7,582 bases of DNA from positions 1 to 7,582 of the forward strand of contig JAQBPL010000279.1 in the NCBI GenBank assembly GCA_028287545.1. Direction: 5' to 3'. The translations under genes were made by a program, and so were the position numbers. Shown here in pieces: positions 2,002-7,582 of the stretch (the stretch's first letter is position 1; every line of letters begins with the position of its first letter). This stretch comes from Vulcanimicrobiota bacterium. GTDB lineage: Bacteria; Eremiobacterota; Eremiobacteria; Baltobacterales; Baltobacteraceae. The notes under the pieces were generated by a model. That model was not told the DNA's origin. It was given only the letters and a program-made list of their open reading frames with translations, and did not search any database.

Positions 2002-3279
2002 TCAGGCGACGGCGCTGCGGACCTGTTCCGCCACGGCGCGGTACCCGAAGCGTCCGCGCAGGGACGCGAGAAGCGGATCGGTCCGGACGAACACGATCCA
2101 GGGGTCGTCGTCGACGATCGCCTGCTGCAGCGCCTCGATCGCCTCGTCCGACCGTCCCAGCCCGACGAGCGCGACCGCACGCTGGTACGACGGCAGGCCG
2201 TCCAGTTCGACCGGAAACTCTTGCGGTGCGCGGCCGCCGTCGCGTGCGCGCGCGCGAATCTGGAGCGCACGGACCTGCGGCCAGCGATCGTCGCCGCCAA
2301 ACCCCTCGAGCGCGGCCAGCACGCCGGCGTACCGCTCGGCGCACGTCAGCGCGCGGGCGAGTTCGTACCGCGCGGCCGGATAGTCCGGGTCCGTTTCCAC
2401 AACGCCGCCCAAGATCTCGATCGCGTCGTCGAACCGGCCTTCGAAGCAGCGCGCGACGCCGAACGACGTCAGCGCGTCGACCGCTTCGGGCGCGTGCAGC
2501 AGTGCTTCACCGACATGATCGAGCGCCGCGGTCGTGTCTCCGCGCGCGAGCGCGTGCGACACGGCGAAGATGCGCGCATCGATGCACGCCGGATCGTAGG
2601 TGAGCGCGGCGTCGATCGCGCGCGCCGCGCCCCGGAAGTCGCGGTAGCCGAACAACCGGATGTCGGCCAGCGCGGCTTGCGCTTCGGCGAGATGCGGTTC
2701 GAGTTCGAGCGCGCGGTGCACCGAATCCAGCGCCGCGGAGAACGCCGCGCGAGGTTCCGCGAACAAGTACTCGGCTTCGATCAAGCGCGCGTCGGCGATG
2801 CCGCAGTGGGCCTTCGCCATCGTGGGCGCCCGCTGCAGCGCTTCCTCGAAGCAGGCGATTGCCGAGCGCACGCAATCCGGCGTCCGCCGCCGCCACAAAC
2901 GCCGTCCGCGCGAGTACCAGACCAGCGCTTCGAGCGACGGGCGCGCACGTTCGCGCACCAGCGACTCGATTTGGCTCGAGATCGCGTCGAGCGCCTCGGC
3001 GCGGCGGCGGAAACAGTGGCGCTCCGAGAGGTGCAGCTCGCCGGCGACGACCTTTGTGGTGCGCCCTTCGAAGTCGACGCCGGTTACGATCCGGCGCAGG
3101 ATCATGTCGTCGGGGCCCGCCAGCGCACCGTCGATCGCGGAGAGGAGCGCTTCCCGAGCCGTCGGGGTGCCCAGCGCCGCACGCAGCGCGATACCGAGCG
3201 TGTCGCGCTCCAGCTGCGCGGGGTGCCGAACCTTCCGCAGCAGTTCTCGGGTCCGGCGAAAGCTCCAGACCTGATTCAT
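2002..3279 (-). CDS. HTH-TPR protein, putative transcriptional regulator
   Basis: 425 aa, cytoplasmic (no signal peptide or membrane segment). The N-terminal third is Arg-rich and basic. Residues about 73-100, with the core ELHLSERHCFRRRAEALDAI, read as a sigma-region-4/LuxR-like helix-turn-helix. Residues about 115-425 are tetratricopeptide-type helical repeats, with TPR-like units near 136-152 (CFEEALQRAP), 183-200 (SVHRALELEPHLAEA) and 281-303 (GRFDDAIEIL then DPDYPAA). The C-terminal DDPWIVFVRTDPLLASLR (391-408) matches the tail of the divergent winged-helix/TPR protein, so the two bodies are probably homologous. TPR domains in such proteins usually sense a ligand or partner; neither is known here. 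There is no Shine-Dalgarno site near the ATG, but a TACGAT box ends 7 nt before it. A non-regulatory TPR scaffold is the alternative. Confidence 0.85.
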   Translation of the reverse strand: MNQVWSFRRTRELLRKVRHPAQLERDTLGIALRAALGTPTAREALLSAIDGALAGPDDMILRRIVTGVDFEGRTTKVVAGELHLSERHCFRRRAEALDAISSQIESLVRERARPSLEALVWYSRGRRLWRRRTPDCVRSAIACFEEALQRAPTMAKAHCGIADARLIEAEYLFAEPRAAFSAALDSVHRALELEPHLAEAQAALADIRLFGYRDFRGAARAIDAALTYDPACIDARIFAVSHALARGDTTAALDHVGEALLHAPEAVDALTSFGVARCFEGRFDDAIEILGGVVETDPDYPAARYELARALTCAERYAGVLAALEGFGGDDRWPQVRALQIRARARDGGRAPQEFPVELDGLPSYQRAVALVGLGRSDEAIEALQQAIVDDDPWIVFVRTDPLLASLRGRFGYRAVAEQVRSAVA

Positions 3280-3389: not shown

Positions 3390-4703
3390 ATGCAGGTTCA
3401 GCCCGCCTACGCGTTCGGACCCTTCGCGCTCGACCCAGCGAGCCGCAGTTTGACTCTGCACGGTATGCACGTGCCGCTTCGGCCGAAGACCTTCGAGCTG
3501 CTCGAGTGCTTCCTGGAGCGCGCCGGCCGCGTGGTGACCAAAGCCGAGCTGATCACCGACCTCTGGCCCGACGGCGAAGTGACCGAGCAGAACCTCGCCC
3601 AGCAGGTGTTTCTGCTCCGCTCGGCCCTGAGCAGCCATGCTTCCGAAGCCTTCGTCGTCACCGTCCCCGGACGCGGCTATCGTTTCGTCGCGCCGGTCGA
3701 CGTGCGGCCGGCGCGCGATGTTCCGCACAGCGATCTGCAGCGGCTGTACCTGCGCGGCCGGTATCATTGGGAGAAACGCACGCGGCAGGGGCTGAGCGAG
3801 GCGCAAGCGTGCTTCGAGCGCGCCATCGCGCTCGACCCGGCGTACGCGCCGGCGCACTCCGGGCTCGCGAGCACGTACATGCTGCGCGGCGAGTTTCTGC
3901 ACGAACTCTCGGACCGCGCCTTTCCCGCCGCGCGCCGAGTGGCGCTGCGCGCGCTCGAGCTCGATCCCGCGCAGCCCGAGGCCCTTACCGTGCTCGGCGA
4001 CGTCGCATTCTTCTACGACCGCGATCTCGAAACGGCCGAGCGGCACTTCGACGACGCGCTCGCGATCGACGCGCGCTACCGGACCGCCCGCCTCTTTCTG
4101 GCTTGGCTGTGCCTCGCCAGCGGACGCTTTGCCCAGGCGCGCCTCGAGATGGAGACGGCGCTCGGCGACGCGCCGTACGATCTGCCGCTTCAGACGGCGC
4201 TCGGCGTGCTCGCAATGTTCGAAGGGGACAGCGCCGCGAGCGTCACGCAGCTCCGCTTCGTGCTCGATCTCGAGCCGACGTTCAATCTCGCCAGCTACTA
4301 TCTCGCGGCCGTGCTCTGTACGCGCGGCGACTACACCGAGGCGCTCGCGGTCCTCGATACCGATGAATCGGGCGAATGGACGCAAGGCAGCGCCGCGATC
4401 GGCGCATTCGCCGCCTATCGGCTTGGCGACGTCGAACGCGGACGCGAGTACGAGCGCGTCGTCGAAGACTACGCGGCGCGCGGCGAACAGGTCTCGGCCT
4501 TCAATCGCGCGGCAGTCGCGGTCGGCAAGCGCGACATCCCGGCCGCTCTCGCGGCGATCTCCACCGGCGCGGCGATGCACGATCCGTGGCTCGTGTTCAT
4601 TCCGGAACACCCGCTCTTCGGGACCGAACTGCGCTGCGATCCCCGCTATCTGCGGACGCTCGAACGGATTGGACTCAGCCGCCGCTCGGAATACGGTACC
4701 TGA
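3390..4703 (+). CDS. Winged-helix (OmpR/CadC-type) DNA-binding protein with TPR domain
   Basis: 437 aa. Residues 8-102 form a complete Trans_reg_C winged helix: YAFGPFALDPASRSLTL, then the LRPKTFELLECFLERAG helix, VTKAELITDLWPD, the recognition helix QNLAQQVFLLRSAL, and the wing VTVPGRGYRFVAPV. From about 117 onward come TPR repeats: LYLRGRYHWEKRT (119-131) with CFERAIALDPAYAPAHSGLA (141-160), ALELDP (188-193) and HFDDALAIDARY (219-230). The tail is DPWLVFIPEHPLFGTELR with DPRYLRTLERIGL. Unlike CadC or ToxR there is no membrane helix between the two parts, so it is a cytoplasmic regulator. Start choice: AGGAAG (3376-3381) lies 8 nt before ATG 3390. It is divergent from the HTH/TPR gene, with which it shares the C-terminal motif. 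Targets and the TPR ligand are unknown; the divergent neighbour and the dyad at 3314-3328 suggest autoregulation. Confidence 0.92.
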   Translation: MQVQPAYAFGPFALDPASRSLTLHGMHVPLRPKTFELLECFLERAGRVVTKAELITDLWPDGEVTEQNLAQQVFLLRSALSSHASEAFVVTVPGRGYRFVAPVDVRPARDVPHSDLQRLYLRGRYHWEKRTRQGLSEAQACFERAIALDPAYAPAHSGLASTYMLRGEFLHELSDRAFPAARRVALRALELDPAQPEALTVLGDVAFFYDRDLETAERHFDDALAIDARYRTARLFLAWLCLASGRFAQARLEMETALGDAPYDLPLQTALGVLAMFEGDSAASVTQLRFVLDLEPTFNLASYYLAAVLCTRGDYTEALAVLDTDESGEWTQGSAAIGAFAAYRLGDVERGREYERVVEDYAARGEQVSAFNRAAVAVGKRDIPAALAAISTGAAMHDPWLVFIPEHPLFGTELRCDPRYLRTLERIGLSRRSEYGT

Positions 4704-4799: not shown

Positions 4800-4826
4800 T
4801 TGATGCAGCGGGCGCTCGGCTCGGGG

Positions 4827-4832
4827 TACGAT
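4827..4832 (+). promoter_or_regulatory. Candidate -10 box (TACGAT) of a leaderless promoter for the OmpR-type gene
   Basis: TACGAT is followed by 6 nt and then GTG 4839, the same hexamer and nearly the same spacing as upstream of the minus-strand HTH/TPR gene. It lies inside the reading frame if translation starts at ATG 4803, which favours the GTG. A TTGATG at 4800-4805 is a poor -35 candidate because the spacing is 21 nt. Confidence 0.3.
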
Positions 4833-4838
4833 ACATTC

Positions 4839-5516
4839 GTGATCACAGCGCGAAGGCGTCCTCGGGTGGCGGTTGTCGGACCCTCCGAGATGGCGGCTGA
4901 CGTGCGCGACGCATTGCACGACGAACTCGACGTGATTCGCCGCGTATGGCTGCCGGGCGCCGAAGCGCCGCGAACCCTCGACGAGGGTGTCGACGCATTG
5001 CTGCTCGTCGTGCACGAACACGAGTTGGCCCGGTGCGTCCCCGCAGCCCGGAAGAGCACGCGCATTCCGCTGATCGTCATGACGCTCGACACGACGGCGA
5101 ACGCACGGGCGCGCGCGCTCGATCTCGGTGCCGACGACGCGATCAGCGCGGCCTGGGACGACGCGGAGTTGCGCGCGCGCATCCGCGCGCTGCTGCGGCG
5201 CACGCCGGGCTCGGCGCCGGCGGTCGTGCAAGTCGAAGATCTCGAGATCGATCTCGGCGCGCGCAGCGTGCGCCGCGGCGGCGACGTGGTCCGCATCTCG
5301 CCGGCTGAGTTTTCGGTGCTGGGCTCGCTCGCACGCAATCCGGGCAACGTGGTGAGACGCGAAGATCTCGCGCGCGAAGTGTGGGGTGACGCGCAGGCCG
5401 TCGCGGACGGTCGCCTCCACACGACCGTTTCGACCCTGCGTTCCAAGCTCGACCGCTCGCCGTTCGTGCCGCTGATCCGCACGATCCACCGGGTCGGGTA
5501 CGCTCTGCGCCGCTAG
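4839..5516 (+). CDS. OmpR-family winged-helix protein with a degenerate (pseudo) receiver domain
   Basis: 225 aa from GTG 4839. The C-terminal half (about 129-225) is a full OmpR/PhoB winged helix: VEDLEIDLGARSV, ISPAEFSVLGSLARNPGNVV, the recognition helix RLHTTVSTLRSKL and the wing IRTIHRVGYALRR. The N-terminal half has receiver-like layout but no phosphorylation chemistry. The acidic pair is GPS in VAVVGPS (10-16). The beta-3 strand LLLVVHEHE has no Asp at the expected place. Beta-5 reads ISAAW instead of the usual Lys-Pro. The Thr in VMTLD and the LGADDAI segment remain. It is therefore probably a phosphorylation-independent regulator. No histidine kinase gene is adjacent. Start: ATG 4803 (237 aa) is in frame, but GTG 4839 gives the usual short lead-in to the first receiver strand and follows a TACGAT box by 6 nt. 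The stop shares CTAG with the convergent gene. Confidence 0.88.
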   Translation: MITARRRPRVAVVGPSEMAADVRDALHDELDVIRRVWLPGAEAPRTLDEGVDALLLVVHEHELARCVPAARKSTRIPLIVMTLDTTANARARALDLGADDAISAAWDDAELRARIRALLRRTPGSAPAVVQVEDLEIDLGARSVRRGGDVVRISPAEFSVLGSLARNPGNVVRREDLAREVWGDAQAVADGRLHTTVSTLRSKLDRSPFVPLIRTIHRVGYALRR

Positions 5517-6205
5517 CCGCCGCTGAACACCGAGTCCGCCACCACGGCGTTGAAGGAATATGCTCCGTAGTCCAAGACCGCGTGCACGCGATACCCGCCG
5601 GCATCGAGATCGGCCTCGGCGCGTTTGGGAAGCTGATACGGACCGGCAGCGGATTCTTCGATCATCATCGCGATCGTCGTGCCGTCTTTGAAGATCCAAC
5701 GGCCGCGCAGCACGGCGGAGGCGTCGGTGTCGAAGTCGACCAGCATGCGGTCGACGTCGCCGGGACGGCGCGGCGTCCCCTCGATGCGGTAGGTGGTGCG
5801 GTTCTCGTCCGTGACAACGTCGCGCACGCGCAGCTCATAGGTGCTGCCCCAGGTAAGCGGAGAGCCGATCTCGGCGAAGACGTGCCGGTACGCGGCCGGC
5901 ATCGAACGCAGGTCGAGCGCGACGCGGTCGGGCCGCTTGTAATACGCCGTGCCGTTCAAGCCGAAATGAAACGTGATCAGTTTGTGCAGATGAACGTCGA
6001 CGTGCACCGGAACGGTGTACGAATCGAGCAGCGCGTCGTGCTCGGTGAAGCGCGCCAGAACCTGCGCGGCTGTAGGGCGCGGCCCGAACGTTGCAGCGGC
6101 AGCGGCATTGGCGGCGGCGCGGGCCGGCTCCCCAGGCGCGATGGCGTTCAAGGTGAGGAGCAGCAGTGCCGGAGCGGCGACGCGCCCCACGAGCCTCGGT
6201 GCCAT
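5513..6205 (-). CDS. Secreted LolA/LolB-fold-like protein (putative outer-membrane lipoprotein-sorting-like or periplasmic protein)
   Basis: 230 aa from ATG 6205. The N-terminus is a Sec signal peptide: a basic start MAPRLVGRVA, a hydrophobic run PALLLLTLNAIA, and a likely cleavage after ARA (28-30). There is no lipobox cysteine. The mature part is a beta-rich domain resembling LolA-like proteins (COG2834-type): GTAYYKRPDRVALDL (85-99), a long set of beta-strand-like segments, and the closing YSFNAVVADSVF (216-227), which matches the usual final strand of that fold. Such proteins carry lipids or lipoproteins in the cell envelope; the cargo is unknown here. A GTG at 6244 would add 13 residues before the signal peptide and is less likely. 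It follows the homoserine dehydrogenase gene by 53 nt on the same strand and is probably cotranscribed with it, though the functions are not obviously linked. Secretion is fairly sure; the LolA-like assignment is moderate. Confidence 0.82.
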   Translation of the reverse strand: MAPRLVGRVAAPALLLLTLNAIAPGEPARAAANAAAAATFGPRPTAAQVLARFTEHDALLDSYTVPVHVDVHLHKLITFHFGLNGTAYYKRPDRVALDLRSMPAAYRHVFAEIGSPLTWGSTYELRVRDVVTDENRTTYRIEGTPRRPGDVDRMLVDFDTDASAVLRGRWIFKDGTTIAMMIEESAAGPYQLPKRAEADLDAGGYRVHAVLDYGAYSFNAVVADSVFSGG

Positions 6206-6258
6206 GTGATGTGTGGCACGTATTCCCCGATCCCCGGACGGCACGACGCGACTGAGCG

Positions 6259-7452
6259 TTAGGCTGCGTCGCTCCAGACGGGGACGATCGCGCGAACGGC
6301 GCCGTGGACGCCGTAGACCCGCGCCGTCGCATCCAACTGGTCGAGCGGAACCGGCTCCGGCGTCACGACGCTGCCGCCGTCGAAGCGGACGAGCACCCGC
6401 GCGCGCAGCGGCTGCGTGACGAGATCGGCGCCGGCGTGCACCGCGACGTGGGGTTCGCCCCCCGCCAGCGCCGCCACGATGTCGGCGACGACCGCCGACG
6501 CGGTCGGATCGCCGCCGGCTCCCGCGCCGGCGAACGTCAGCGCGCCGCAGCCGCGGCCGACCACGCGCACGACATTGCCGGCGCCGCGCGGCTGGGCGAA
6601 GGGATGCGCGGCCGGAACGTACGCGGGCGTTACGCCCGCTTCGATCCCTTCGCCGGAGCGCTTCGCGATCGCGAGCAGCTTCAACCGCCAGCCGCGCTCC
6701 GCGCCCGCCTGTACGTCGGCGGCGCTCAGCGCCGCGATGCCGTGGCGGAGCACGCCGCCGGAGGTCGACGGCCGGCGGAACGCGAGCCCGGCGAGGATCG
6801 CGAGTTTGTGCGCCGCGTCGTGACCGTCGACGTCGGCACGCGGATCGGCTTCGGCGAAACCGAGCTGCTGTGCTTGCGCGAGCGCTTCATCGTAGGCCGC
6901 GCCGGCGTCCATCGCGTCGAGCACGAAGTTCGTCGTTCCGTTCAGCACGCCGCCGATTTCGAGCACGTCCTCGCTCCCGAGCGATCCCGCCAATGCGCGC
7001 ACGATCGGGATCGCGCCGCCGACCGCCGCTTCGTACCGCAGCGTGGCGCCGGTGCGCGCCGCGAACGCCGCGAGCCACGGGCCTTCGGTCGCGATCAGGT
7101 CTTTGTTCGCCGTGACGACATCTTTGCCGCGAGCGATCGCGCGCAGCACGAGCTCGCGCGCCAGGCCCACGCCGCCGATGCACTCCACCACGACGCGCAC
7201 CGCCGGATCGTCGACGACCTCGAACGGGTCGCCGTCGAAATCTTCCCACGCGACGGCGCGCGGCTTGTGCGGATCGCGGACCGCGATCCCGCGCACGAGG
7301 TCGGGATGCAGTTCCAGCAGCCGGCGCGCGACGCTCGACCCGACGGTGCCGCAGCCGAGCAGGCCGATCCCGTTGACGCGCTGCGCCGTCGCGGTAGCCG
7401 TCGAAATCGACGCCGCTTCAGACGAGCAGAGAACCTTGGGAACGGTGTGCAC
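6259..7452 (-). CDS. hom: Homoserine dehydrogenase, short form without ACT domain
   Basis: 397 aa from GTG 7452. It reduces aspartate semialdehyde to homoserine with NAD(P)H, the branch point to threonine and methionine, in the cytoplasm. The Rossmann motif IGLLGCGTVG lies at 29-38 and TANKDL at 114-119 (Lys117). The family signature runs from GFAEADPRADVD to GHDAAHK (198-216), with Glu201 and catalytic Lys216. GAGAGGDP (309-316) closes the core, followed by TASAVVADIV. The remaining ~70 residues show no ACT-type motif, so direct allosteric control by threonine is not expected from this chain. Start: GGAGG (7462-7458) lies 5 nt before GTG 7452. The in-frame ATG at 7464 (401 aa) has no Shine-Dalgarno site, and the GGAGG would fall inside it. 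Either start precedes the first Rossmann strand. Upstream is a terminator/antiterminator leader suggesting attenuation. The signal-peptide gene downstream probably shares the transcript. Confidence 0.95.
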   Translation of the reverse strand: MHTVPKVLCSSEAASISTATATAQRVNGIGLLGCGTVGSSVARRLLELHPDLVRGIAVRDPHKPRAVAWEDFDGDPFEVVDDPAVRVVVECIGGVGLARELVLRAIARGKDVVTANKDLIATEGPWLAAFAARTGATLRYEAAVGGAIPIVRALAGSLGSEDVLEIGGVLNGTTNFVLDAMDAGAAYDEALAQAQQLGFAEADPRADVDGHDAAHKLAILAGLAFRRPSTSGGVLRHGIAALSAADVQAGAERGWRLKLLAIAKRSGEGIEAGVTPAYVPAAHPFAQPRGAGNVVRVVGRGCGALTFAGAGAGGDPTASAVVADIVAALAGGEPHVAVHAGADLVTQPLRARVLVRFDGGSVVTPEPVPLDQLDATARVYGVHGAVRAIVPVWSDAA

Positions 7453-7457
7453 GAGTG

Positions 7458-7462
7458 CCTCC
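7458..7462 (-). promoter_or_regulatory. Shine-Dalgarno site GGAGG deciding the hom start
   Basis: GGAGG on the minus strand is followed by CACTC (5 nt) and GTG 7452-7450. It overlaps the G of the alternative ATG 7464-7462, so it cannot serve that start. Confidence 0.6.
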
Positions 7463-7480
7463 ATGGTCGGTAAACCGGGA

Positions 7481-7515
7481 AATGAAAACGGCCCCCGCCG
7501 ATTGGCGAGGGCCGT
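7481..7515 (-). terminator. Intrinsic terminator in the hom leader (attenuator terminator)
   Basis: In minus-strand RNA, ACGGCCCUCGCC (7515-7504) pairs with GGCGGGGGCCGU (7499-7488) around the 4-nt loop AAUC. That is 12 pairs, one of them a G-U wobble. UUUUC (7488-7484) and AUUU follow. The same position is a C-A mismatch in plus-strand RNA, and there is no U-tract on that side, so the element is built for leftward transcription. It ends about 30 nt before the hom start. It could instead terminate an upstream minus-strand gene outside the window. Confidence 0.8.
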
Positions 7516-7576
7516 GTCTGTCGTCGCTAGCGTCCGCGTTACGCCGACGTCGACCCAGACCCGCCCTCGCTGAGGG
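7488..7576 (-). promoter_or_regulatory. Putative transcription attenuator leader of hom (mutually exclusive hairpins)
   Basis: Four segments on the minus strand can pair in the classical way. Segment 1, CCCTC (7576-7572), pairs with GAGGG (7568-7564) across AGC. Segment 2, GCGAGGGC (7570-7563), is perfectly complementary over 8 nt to GCCCTCGC (7512-7505), which is the terminator's 5' arm (segment 3). Segment 3 pairs with segment 4 (7499-7488) as the terminator. So 1:2 allows termination and 2:3 prevents it. Threonine codons occur in two frames of the leader. The start of a leader peptide would be beyond the window edge. Family knowledge: thr operon genes including homoserine dehydrogenase are attenuated this way in enterobacteria; extending that to this locus is inference. 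Confidence 0.55.
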
Positions 7577-7580
7577 TAGT
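7539..7580 (-). other. 3' end of a short open frame in the hom leader, candidate leader peptide (truncated)
   Basis: A minus-strand frame enters from the window edge and ends at TAA 7541-7539 with the residues TTLSEGGSGSTSA. Its two Thr codons ACT and ACC (7580-7575) lie at segment 1 of the proposed attenuator. It could be the tail of a leader peptide, of an ordinary upstream gene, or noncoding. No start is visible. Confidence 0.2.
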
Positions 7581-7582
7581 CG

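Follow-up and report, generated by a model that had tools for sequence, protein, structure and literature searches.

A probable threonine-responsive attenuator before the homoserine dehydrogenase gene of Eremiobacterota, and related leaders with other sensor codons

The homoserine dehydrogenase gene (hom) of an Eremiobacterota bacterium is most probably controlled by a ribosome-mediated, threonine-responsive transcription attenuator, a reading which best explains the leader before the gene and to which, from comparative sequence and fold modelling, we give a probability of about 0.9. The leader carries a short open reading frame (ORF) with a run of threonine codons, alternative RNA pairings of which one is an intrinsic terminator, and a characteristic spacing, and ORF, codons, pairings and spacing are conserved among relatives. 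Related leaders with other codons stand before further genes of the class. In what follows the window is the whole stretch of 7,582 nucleotides that was analysed.

The leader and its gene in the window

On the minus strand of the window the order is leader, terminator and hom (Table 1). As the original prediction had it, a 12-pair stem with a U-tract stands just before the gene: the terminator (7515-7488, minus strand) consists of ACGGCCCTCGCC, the loop AATC and GGCGGGGGCCGT and runs on into TTTCATTT, with a short T-tract (TTTTC) whose first T is also the final base of the stem. A pattern scan of 6200-7582 finds two terminator-like sites against 0.4 expected from shuffles, the second being a shorter hairpin nested within the first. 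The sole imperfect pair of the stem, U7508-G7495, forms only in the strand that reads into hom, the opposite strand having a C/A mismatch there; arm 2 is exactly complementary over its 8 nt to GCCCTCGC (7512-7505) in the 5' arm of the terminator, and its GAGGG pairs alternatively with the CCCTC of arm 1. All three of these points had been predicted and all three stand. The leader, as the last 137 nt of the window, folds at -63.1 kcal/mol (z -3.35, with none of 200 shuffles as low), and its minimum free energy (MFE) structure comprises the hairpin of arms 1 and 2, a middle hairpin and the terminator.

Table 1. Features of hom and its leader in the window
Feature	Coordinates	Strand	Basis or remark
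Leader-peptide ORF, 3' end (..T-T-L-S-E-G-G-S-G-S-T-S-A-stop)	7539..7582	-	identity to L081; full ORF read in L081/L001 and L204
Leader ORF stop TAA	7541-7539	-	ORF start outside the window
Arm 1, CCCTC	7572..7576	-	overlaps last Thr codon and Leu codon
Outer 1:2 pairing, GAC with GTC	7581-7579 with 7560-7558	-	alongside arm 1
Arm 2, GCGAGGGC	7563..7570	-	alternative partners arm 1 and arm 3; first base to stop 29 nt
Middle hairpin, base GTCTG 7560-7556 with CAGAC 7520-7516	7516..7560	-	MFE; sets arms 2 and 3 next to each other
Arm 3, 5' half of terminator stem	7504..7515	-	7512-7505 pairs with arm 2 too
Arm 4 (7499-7488) and U-tract (7488-7485)	7485..7499	-	
hom Shine-Dalgarno GGAGG, 5 nt before GTG	7458..7462	-	sequence
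hom, homoserine dehydrogenase, 397 aa from GTG 7452	6259..7452	-	NF004976 E 8.5e-104; PF00742 E 4.6e-53

The same layout of GGAGG, 5 nt and GTG is found at hom in L002-L004, L006 and L007, and the gene probably starts at GTG 7452 and not at ATG 7464, because a 1-nt insertion lies between the two in L001. No ACT domain is matched in the Hom of the window, nor in any of 70 main-lineage Hom proteins, with or without a leader, when searched with an ACT HMM trained on the 18 ACT-matching paralog and outgroup rows (contig ends truncate some of the 70), and so loss of an ACT domain as the partner of the leader is rejected. The leader is absent from all 10 ACT-bearing Hom paralogs, the paralog row L191 having been excluded from the Pfam comparison. 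Thus the putatively leader-controlled Hom of the window (6259-7452) is without ACT, and the leaderless paralogs of related genomes (L190, L195) carry it.

As to the neighbours, the gene directly downstream of hom (5513-6244, minus strand) has no Pfam or NCBIfam match, and a protein similar by eye to its product comes after hom in L200 (7287-7952). Elsewhere in the window two divergent genes (2002-3279, minus strand, and 3390-4703, plus strand) encode TPR proteins, one with a Trans_reg_C DNA-binding domain, and beside this pair lies an OmpR-type regulator-like gene (4800-5516).

A threonine-rich leader ORF in the relatives

The nearest relatives of the window are MAGs of Eremiobacterota (WPS-2), a name which NCBI taxonomy places under Vulcanimicrobiota, and the closest of them (L001/L081) has a Hom 96% identical to that of the window and a leader identical to it over 127 nt. 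There the end of the window is read as the 3' part of a 27-codon ORF, MAATRVITTTMTMTTTLSEGGSGSTSA, the start of which is seen only in relatives. Two contigs of this genome (C104 and C251) end within or close to the hom leader, and the window does likewise at 7582.

Among 117 genomes of the class, 73 have a hom match at E 1e-30, giving 82 hom places and 79 upstream stretches that were screened. Three places (G024, G055 and G092) lie at contig ends, the upstream region of G055 being inspected by eye; only 46 nt of upstream sequence is available for L105 and 20 nt for L084, and the hom start of L131 was estimated, its match beginning at residue 109. A Thr-rich ORF over arms 1 and 2 is present in 12 of the 12 readable upstream stretches of the Hom clade around the window (63-96% identity), and a thirteenth such leader lies on another contig of the L084 genome, where the contig that bears hom breaks off after 20 nt of upstream sequence. 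The runs comprise 125 residues, namely 79 Thr, 22 Met, 18 Ile and 6 others, and hence 119 are threonine, isoleucine or methionine, all three of which derive from homoserine. The Thr codons in the runs are mixed (ACG 51, ACC 19, ACT 9). In ten leaders the densest stretch has 6-8 Thr per 10 residues, and in L091 and L092, the runs of which hold just 4 Thr, it has 4 per 10. The mean Thr fraction is 0.287 in frame against 0.01, 0, 0.013, 0.04 and 0.099 in the five other frames.

The distance from arm 2 to the stop is 29 nt in all 12 hom leaders; what varies among them is the length of the ORF (25-31 codons) and the distance from stop to arm 3 (25-30 nt). Every leader has Thr, Ile or Met codons at positions -3, -6, -9 and -12 relative to the arm-1 codon, a placement of sensor codons that is geometry only and assumes a ribosome footprint. 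A TAnnnT box precedes the leader ATG in all 12, at 6 nt in six leaders and at 9 nt in the other six, compared to 13 of 744 other ATGs in the 79 upstream regions that have such a box 6-9 nt upstream, and on a second contig of the closest genome (L204) the order is TTGCGC, 17 nt, TAGGGT, 9 nt and ATG. No Shine-Dalgarno sequence is seen before the leader ATG on inspection of the 12 hom leaders, which suggests a leaderless or nearly leaderless mRNA. Where the original prediction looked for a promoter and a short ORF with clustered Thr, Ile or Met codons beyond 7582, the closest relatives thus have a promoter-like box and an ORF of this kind, in a frame that runs over arms 1 and 2.

Conservation of the alternative pairings

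All three pairings (1:2, 2:3 and 3:4) are retained across the 12 readable relatives, some of which have single mismatches. The pairs of arms 1 and 2 are kept throughout except for one inner pair in L087, and an outer 1:2 pair changes from G-C to C-G in L091 and L092, both of its sides being coding. Taken together the 1:2 and 3:4 pairs form in 97.8% of cells across the 12 hom leaders; their covariation score is reached by none of 500 shuffles, the four pairs changed on both sides are matched by 10 of 500 and the count of further pair types by 388 of 500, with the proviso that the relatives share ancestry, so that such shuffle tests overstate significance and an agreement of 12 in 12 is not twelve independent events. 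The 2:3 helix retains 7-9 of its 9 pairs in each of the 12 and shows no covariation in the hom leaders (all 500 shuffles score as high); both of its arms also have a second partner, arm 3 being common to 2:3 and 3:4 in all 12. The 2:3 complementarity, the loss of which in close relatives would have spoken against the original prediction, is thus kept, although it does not covary.

The duplex between the ORF and arm 3 goes beyond that of shuffled ORFs (p<0.05) in 11 of 12 leaders, L086 being at p = 0.060, and in L081 it is stronger than with dinucleotide shuffles of the ORF at p = 0.010. The middle hairpin folds in all 12 and at p<0.05 versus shuffles in 10 (L089 0.242, L091 0.058), and L091 and L092 keep it despite quite different sequence. 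A chance origin of the arms is made unlikely by their conservation and by these shuffle tests. Before arm 4 is transcribed, the fold in which arms 2 and 3 close around the middle hairpin (2:middle:3) is the MFE structure without a ribosome in 11 of 12 leaders (not in L086), and with a ribosome masked over the run it is so in all 12. When the ribosome is masked at the stop, 2:3 is still in the MFE structure of all 12, in a fold 16-27 kcal/mol weaker than the free one.

A model for attenuation of hom

From this arrangement we infer that a promoter is present, that the ORF is translated, that ribosomes stall and transcription terminates there, and in which direction the system responds. The proposal of thr-operon-like attenuation before hom, made originally from the window alone, draws support from the Thr ORF, the alternative pairings and the spacing, conserved in 12 of 12. 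Expression of hom would respond to the supply of charged threonyl-tRNA, with lesser contributions likely from isoleucyl- and methionyl-tRNA. A promoter with a -10-like box beginning 12 or 15 nt before the leader ATG would yield the leaderless or nearly leaderless mRNA. When Thr-tRNA is scarce the ribosome would stall in the Thr run and cover arm 1, while arm 2 and the middle hairpin stay accessible; closure of arms 2 and 3 around the middle hairpin would then withhold arm 3 from arm 4, and RNA polymerase would enter hom. When Thr-tRNA is ample the ribosome would reach the stop, 29 nt past the start of arm 2, and by reading the 5' side of the middle hairpin would open it, so freeing arm 3 to form the terminator with arm 4, and 1:2 would re-form behind the ribosome translating to the stop.

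Because 2:middle:3 is favoured without a ribosome and 2:3 is kept with the ribosome at the stop, the choice between the arms would have to be kinetic in this model. In the simplest textbook scheme of attenuation things differ, since here 1:2 is small and 2:middle:3 wins thermodynamically until arm 4 appears; the main effect of translation to the stop would therefore be to open the middle hairpin, and the outcome may not hang on the small 1:2 hairpin.

Alternative explanations and the metX side

It seems very unlikely that the hairpin is an ordinary intrinsic terminator of a metX (metYX) transcript, with the hom promoter downstream of it and the arm 2 complementarity a matter of chance. In the closest relative metX, which is preceded by metY with a leader of its own, does stop 19 nt inside the leader ORF and some 90 nt before arm 3, high-GC terminators are often alike, and a covariance model of the 12 leaders also matches plain terminators at up to 40.0 bits. 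However all 12 leaders have the Thr-rich ORF in register with the arms and the constant distance from arm 2 to stop, the promoter-like box keeps a fixed spacing and the arm 2 complementarity goes beyond shuffles in 11 of 12. Further, in L004 metX and the leader are separated by a further ORF that looks hydrolase-like by eye and stops short of the leader start, and so the element is not tied to metX. A normal gene ending just upstream of the terminator would have spoken against the original prediction; metX does end nearby in the closest relative, and the element of L004 is separate from it. A double role, in ending an upstream transcript and in attenuation, is compatible with the leader, and since metX ends inside the closest relative's leader the terminator may also end metX transcripts. 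The 19-nt overlap of metX and the hom leader is L204:80-98, and the promoter-like boxes of hom lie inside metX.

Less likely still is that the leader peptide is itself active, as an arrest peptide or in trans, and that its conserved C-terminus (LGEGRSGSTSA) is functional. Ten of the 12 leaders resemble each other in their last 11 residues, and action in trans is reported for the leader peptide peTrpL of S. meliloti (PMC7298713). The tail of L091 and L092 is however LGEGECRSVLV, while the RNA arms and the length are kept, and of the metY leaders (below) seven have the RNA segment around GCGAGGG..GGTGTAG in one reading frame and four in another, which argues that the RNA rather than the peptide is conserved. 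Control of hom by a T-box, a SAM or other riboswitch, or a Rho-dependent leader is the least probable of these readings. Such elements precede amino-acid genes in other phyla, but the leader here is nearly all ORF and terminator. In the window no match to an Rfam family attains the gathering score, for which reason a riboswitch or T-box is rejected, and only far sub-threshold matches appear at E up to 5 in 7400-7582; in L001-L007 two tRNA genes and nothing else are found at gathering score. Ribosome-mediated, threonine-responsive attenuation of hom remains the preferred reading.

Related leaders before metY, thrC and other genes

A covariance model built from the 12 hom leaders was used to search the class (117 genomes), with downstream genes (metY, metX, thrC) called by reference proteins named by NCBIfam. 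Scores are 121-156 bits for the 13 hom leaders and 86 bits for a truncated copy of the L081 leader, found on a second contig; the best score in 30 control genomes of other phyla is 31.0 bits. Plain terminators within the class reach 40.0 bits and so bits alone are not decisive near 40; many weak matches up to about 40 bits (such as those in G063, G060, G007:C170, G003:C2 and G006:C20) look like plain terminators and were rejected.

Leaders with Met and Cys codons are found in 11 genomes at 40-58 bits, with peptides such as MNGRCMAIMAMCASREGRCRSSSP and MDRRPAMMMMCCSPRGTV, and the gene directly after them is metY in 10 cases and metX in one (G113); a weaker twelfth match (G111, 36.8 bits) is also before metY. 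These 11 leaders form 3-4 of 4 pairs in 1:2, 8-9 of 9 in 2:3 and 9-10 of 10 in 3:4. One 2:3 pair is changed on both sides, in one leader, the covariation score being reached by 18 of 500 shuffles, and the ORF-arm 3 duplex is at p<0.05 in 7 of 11. A segment of GCGAGGG and middle hairpin is common to the hom (Thr) and metY (Met/Cys) leaders, which, judging from their sequences, probably arose by duplication and were retuned through a change of the codon run. The fixed distance from arm 2 to the stop does not hold as a general rule, being 29 nt in all 12 hom leaders but 30 or 14 nt in those of metY.

Poly-Thr leaders, with up to 12 Thr in a row and scores of 45-58 bits, occur in 11 genomes and stand directly before thrC in all 11. 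Met/Cys leaders also precede the gene of an SsuA-family sulfonate-binding protein in two genomes (tested for L212, by eye for L215), where L212:1268-1409 and L215 (G112:C1:1786763-1786903) read ..AMSMCC.. and ..AMCMCC.. and have terminators. Scores near noise are obtained for a candidate Ile-containing leader before ilvA (L216, G112:C1:530565-530698, 36.3 bits), for a candidate before a gene that is ilvA-like by eye (L223, G077:C33:22025-22160) and for one before an aspartate-kinase-like gene (L186, G076:C11:49910-50045).

Met/Cys leaders before hom and the Hom tree

In a generic screen the more distant hom genes are preceded by short ORFs such as MFTAVAMMCPMCCMQMHAAWAVVERTV and then a terminator, and the earlier idea from a Thr-only screen that distant homs are leaderless was dropped, Met/Cys leaders being found there. 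Twenty-nine were analysed, L135 and L136 being of mixed composition and L143 and L145 having been excluded as repeat peptides. Their internal Met fraction is 0.17 in frame versus 0.003-0.07 in the other frames; the Cys signal alone is not frame-specific, since the fraction in frame +1 (0.133) exceeds that in frame (0.082). TAnnnT lies exactly 7 nt before the ATG in 24 of the 29, at 9 nt in L138 and 10 nt in L136, with none in three, and the ORF-arm 3 duplex goes beyond shuffles in only 13 of 29. Seven more Met/Cys hom leaders are recognised by eye (L124, the weakest, L132, L139, L140, L146, L153 and L263). At L111 and L122 the hom start region comes immediately after a -10-like TAnnnT box, with no leader between, and these two appear to have lost the whole leader-terminator cassette. 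Before other homs, for example L095-L103, neither leader nor terminator was found by the generic screen and by eye.

On a Hom tree made by a quick method that warned of long branches, the 14 Thr rows including the window are one clade (SH-aLRT 100), and 27 of 29 Met rows fall in one clade of 36 (support 97), with L094 and L147 outside. The Met state makes 12 changes as labelled by the automatic screen, an overcount because the seven by-eye cases are labelled as none, and the tree does not tell whether the Thr or the Met state is older. At 69 loci of other phyla, short frames rich in Thr or Met/Cys before hom were found in two. In one of these, L047 (1426-1473, plus strand, MAG Co_bin.216) a Thr/Ile-rich ORF, MYMHTTITTVTVIGDS, is followed by a terminator and then hom, and from its sequence this looks like a separate Thr leader without obvious relation to that of the window.

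Comparison with known systems

Ribosome-mediated attenuation of the enterobacterial thr operons, and Thr leaders with it, is textbook matter. Like thrL of Gammaproteobacteria (RF00506) the hom leader has a Thr/Ile-rich peptide, competing hairpins and an intrinsic terminator and would control the homoserine dehydrogenase step; in contrast to thrL its ORF begins at a promoter-like box with no evident Shine-Dalgarno sequence and contains arm 2, Met codons occur in the run, and the target is a separate Hom without an ACT domain. The Rfam model RF00506 (Thr_leader) finds 5 of the 12 loci at 37.1, 35.7, 34.6, 31.9 and 30.5 bits (E 0.002-0.073) against a gathering score of 55, and at E 0.5 none of the other seven, nor the window, which holds part of the leader only. 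As the gathering score is never reached we do not file the hom leader as RF00506, and the claim that its sequence is unrelated to the enterobacterial leader holds insofar as the Thr_leader matches are sub-threshold. In mycobacteria polycysteine ORFs are reportedly attenuators, going by the title of a cited paper.

A report on S. lividans (PMC8079986) describes leaderless leader peptides, among them metL before metNIQ, thrL before thrS, leuL, trpL and ilvL, with Met, Cys and Thr in the metL peptide MSTTSDRTPATEATTTPGARCMCRRMCAF. These resemble the leaders here, which are themselves probably leaderless or nearly so, as sensor ORFs in which the regulated amino acid is abundant, whereas metL and thrL are said to lack a typical or clear intrinsic terminator and the genes differ, the comparison being one of descriptions. 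Leaderless attenuators and Met leader peptides are therefore not new as ideas. For threonine and methionine operons a survey of Actinobacteria reports no conserved upstream RNA structure (PMC1262725), and a 2010 survey of premature terminators places leader-peptide systems in Proteobacteria and Actinobacteria, adds Firmicutes, and describes changes of sensing system at one same gene (PMC2965389). The attenuators of both surveys are of the same mechanistic class as that proposed for the hom leader. Among the top results of a literature search, with subscription papers largely outside it, there was no report of translation-coupled attenuation in Eremiobacterota (Vulcanimicrobiota).

Significance for the homoserine branch

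The hom leader itself is most probably a known mechanism in a new phylum, which would extend translation-coupled attenuation to Eremiobacterota (Vulcanimicrobiota), and what is novel is more the sensor codons, differing between genes and between lineages, than the mechanism. Across the class it is quite probable that one style of leaderless attenuator is used with its sensor codons exchanged, the leaders of hom and metY being retuned duplicates. Under this reading Thr codons would serve at hom in the clade of the window and at thrC elsewhere, and Met/Cys codons at metY (or metX) in the window clade, at hom in many other genomes and at the sulfonate-uptake gene. The exchange of Thr and Met/Cys sensor codons around the homoserine branch is well suggested, if less firmly shown. 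If it is true, Met/Cys leaders with full intrinsic terminators would make up a sulfur-amino-acid attenuator class. Unannotated small ORFs are given a putative amino-acid specificity by these leaders. The genomes would also provide a natural series for comparison, one gene being sensed via Thr codons in one lineage and via Met/Cys codons in another, with two genomes (L111 and L122) that appear to have lost the leader, and the evolution of attenuator specificity would therefore be directly comparable.
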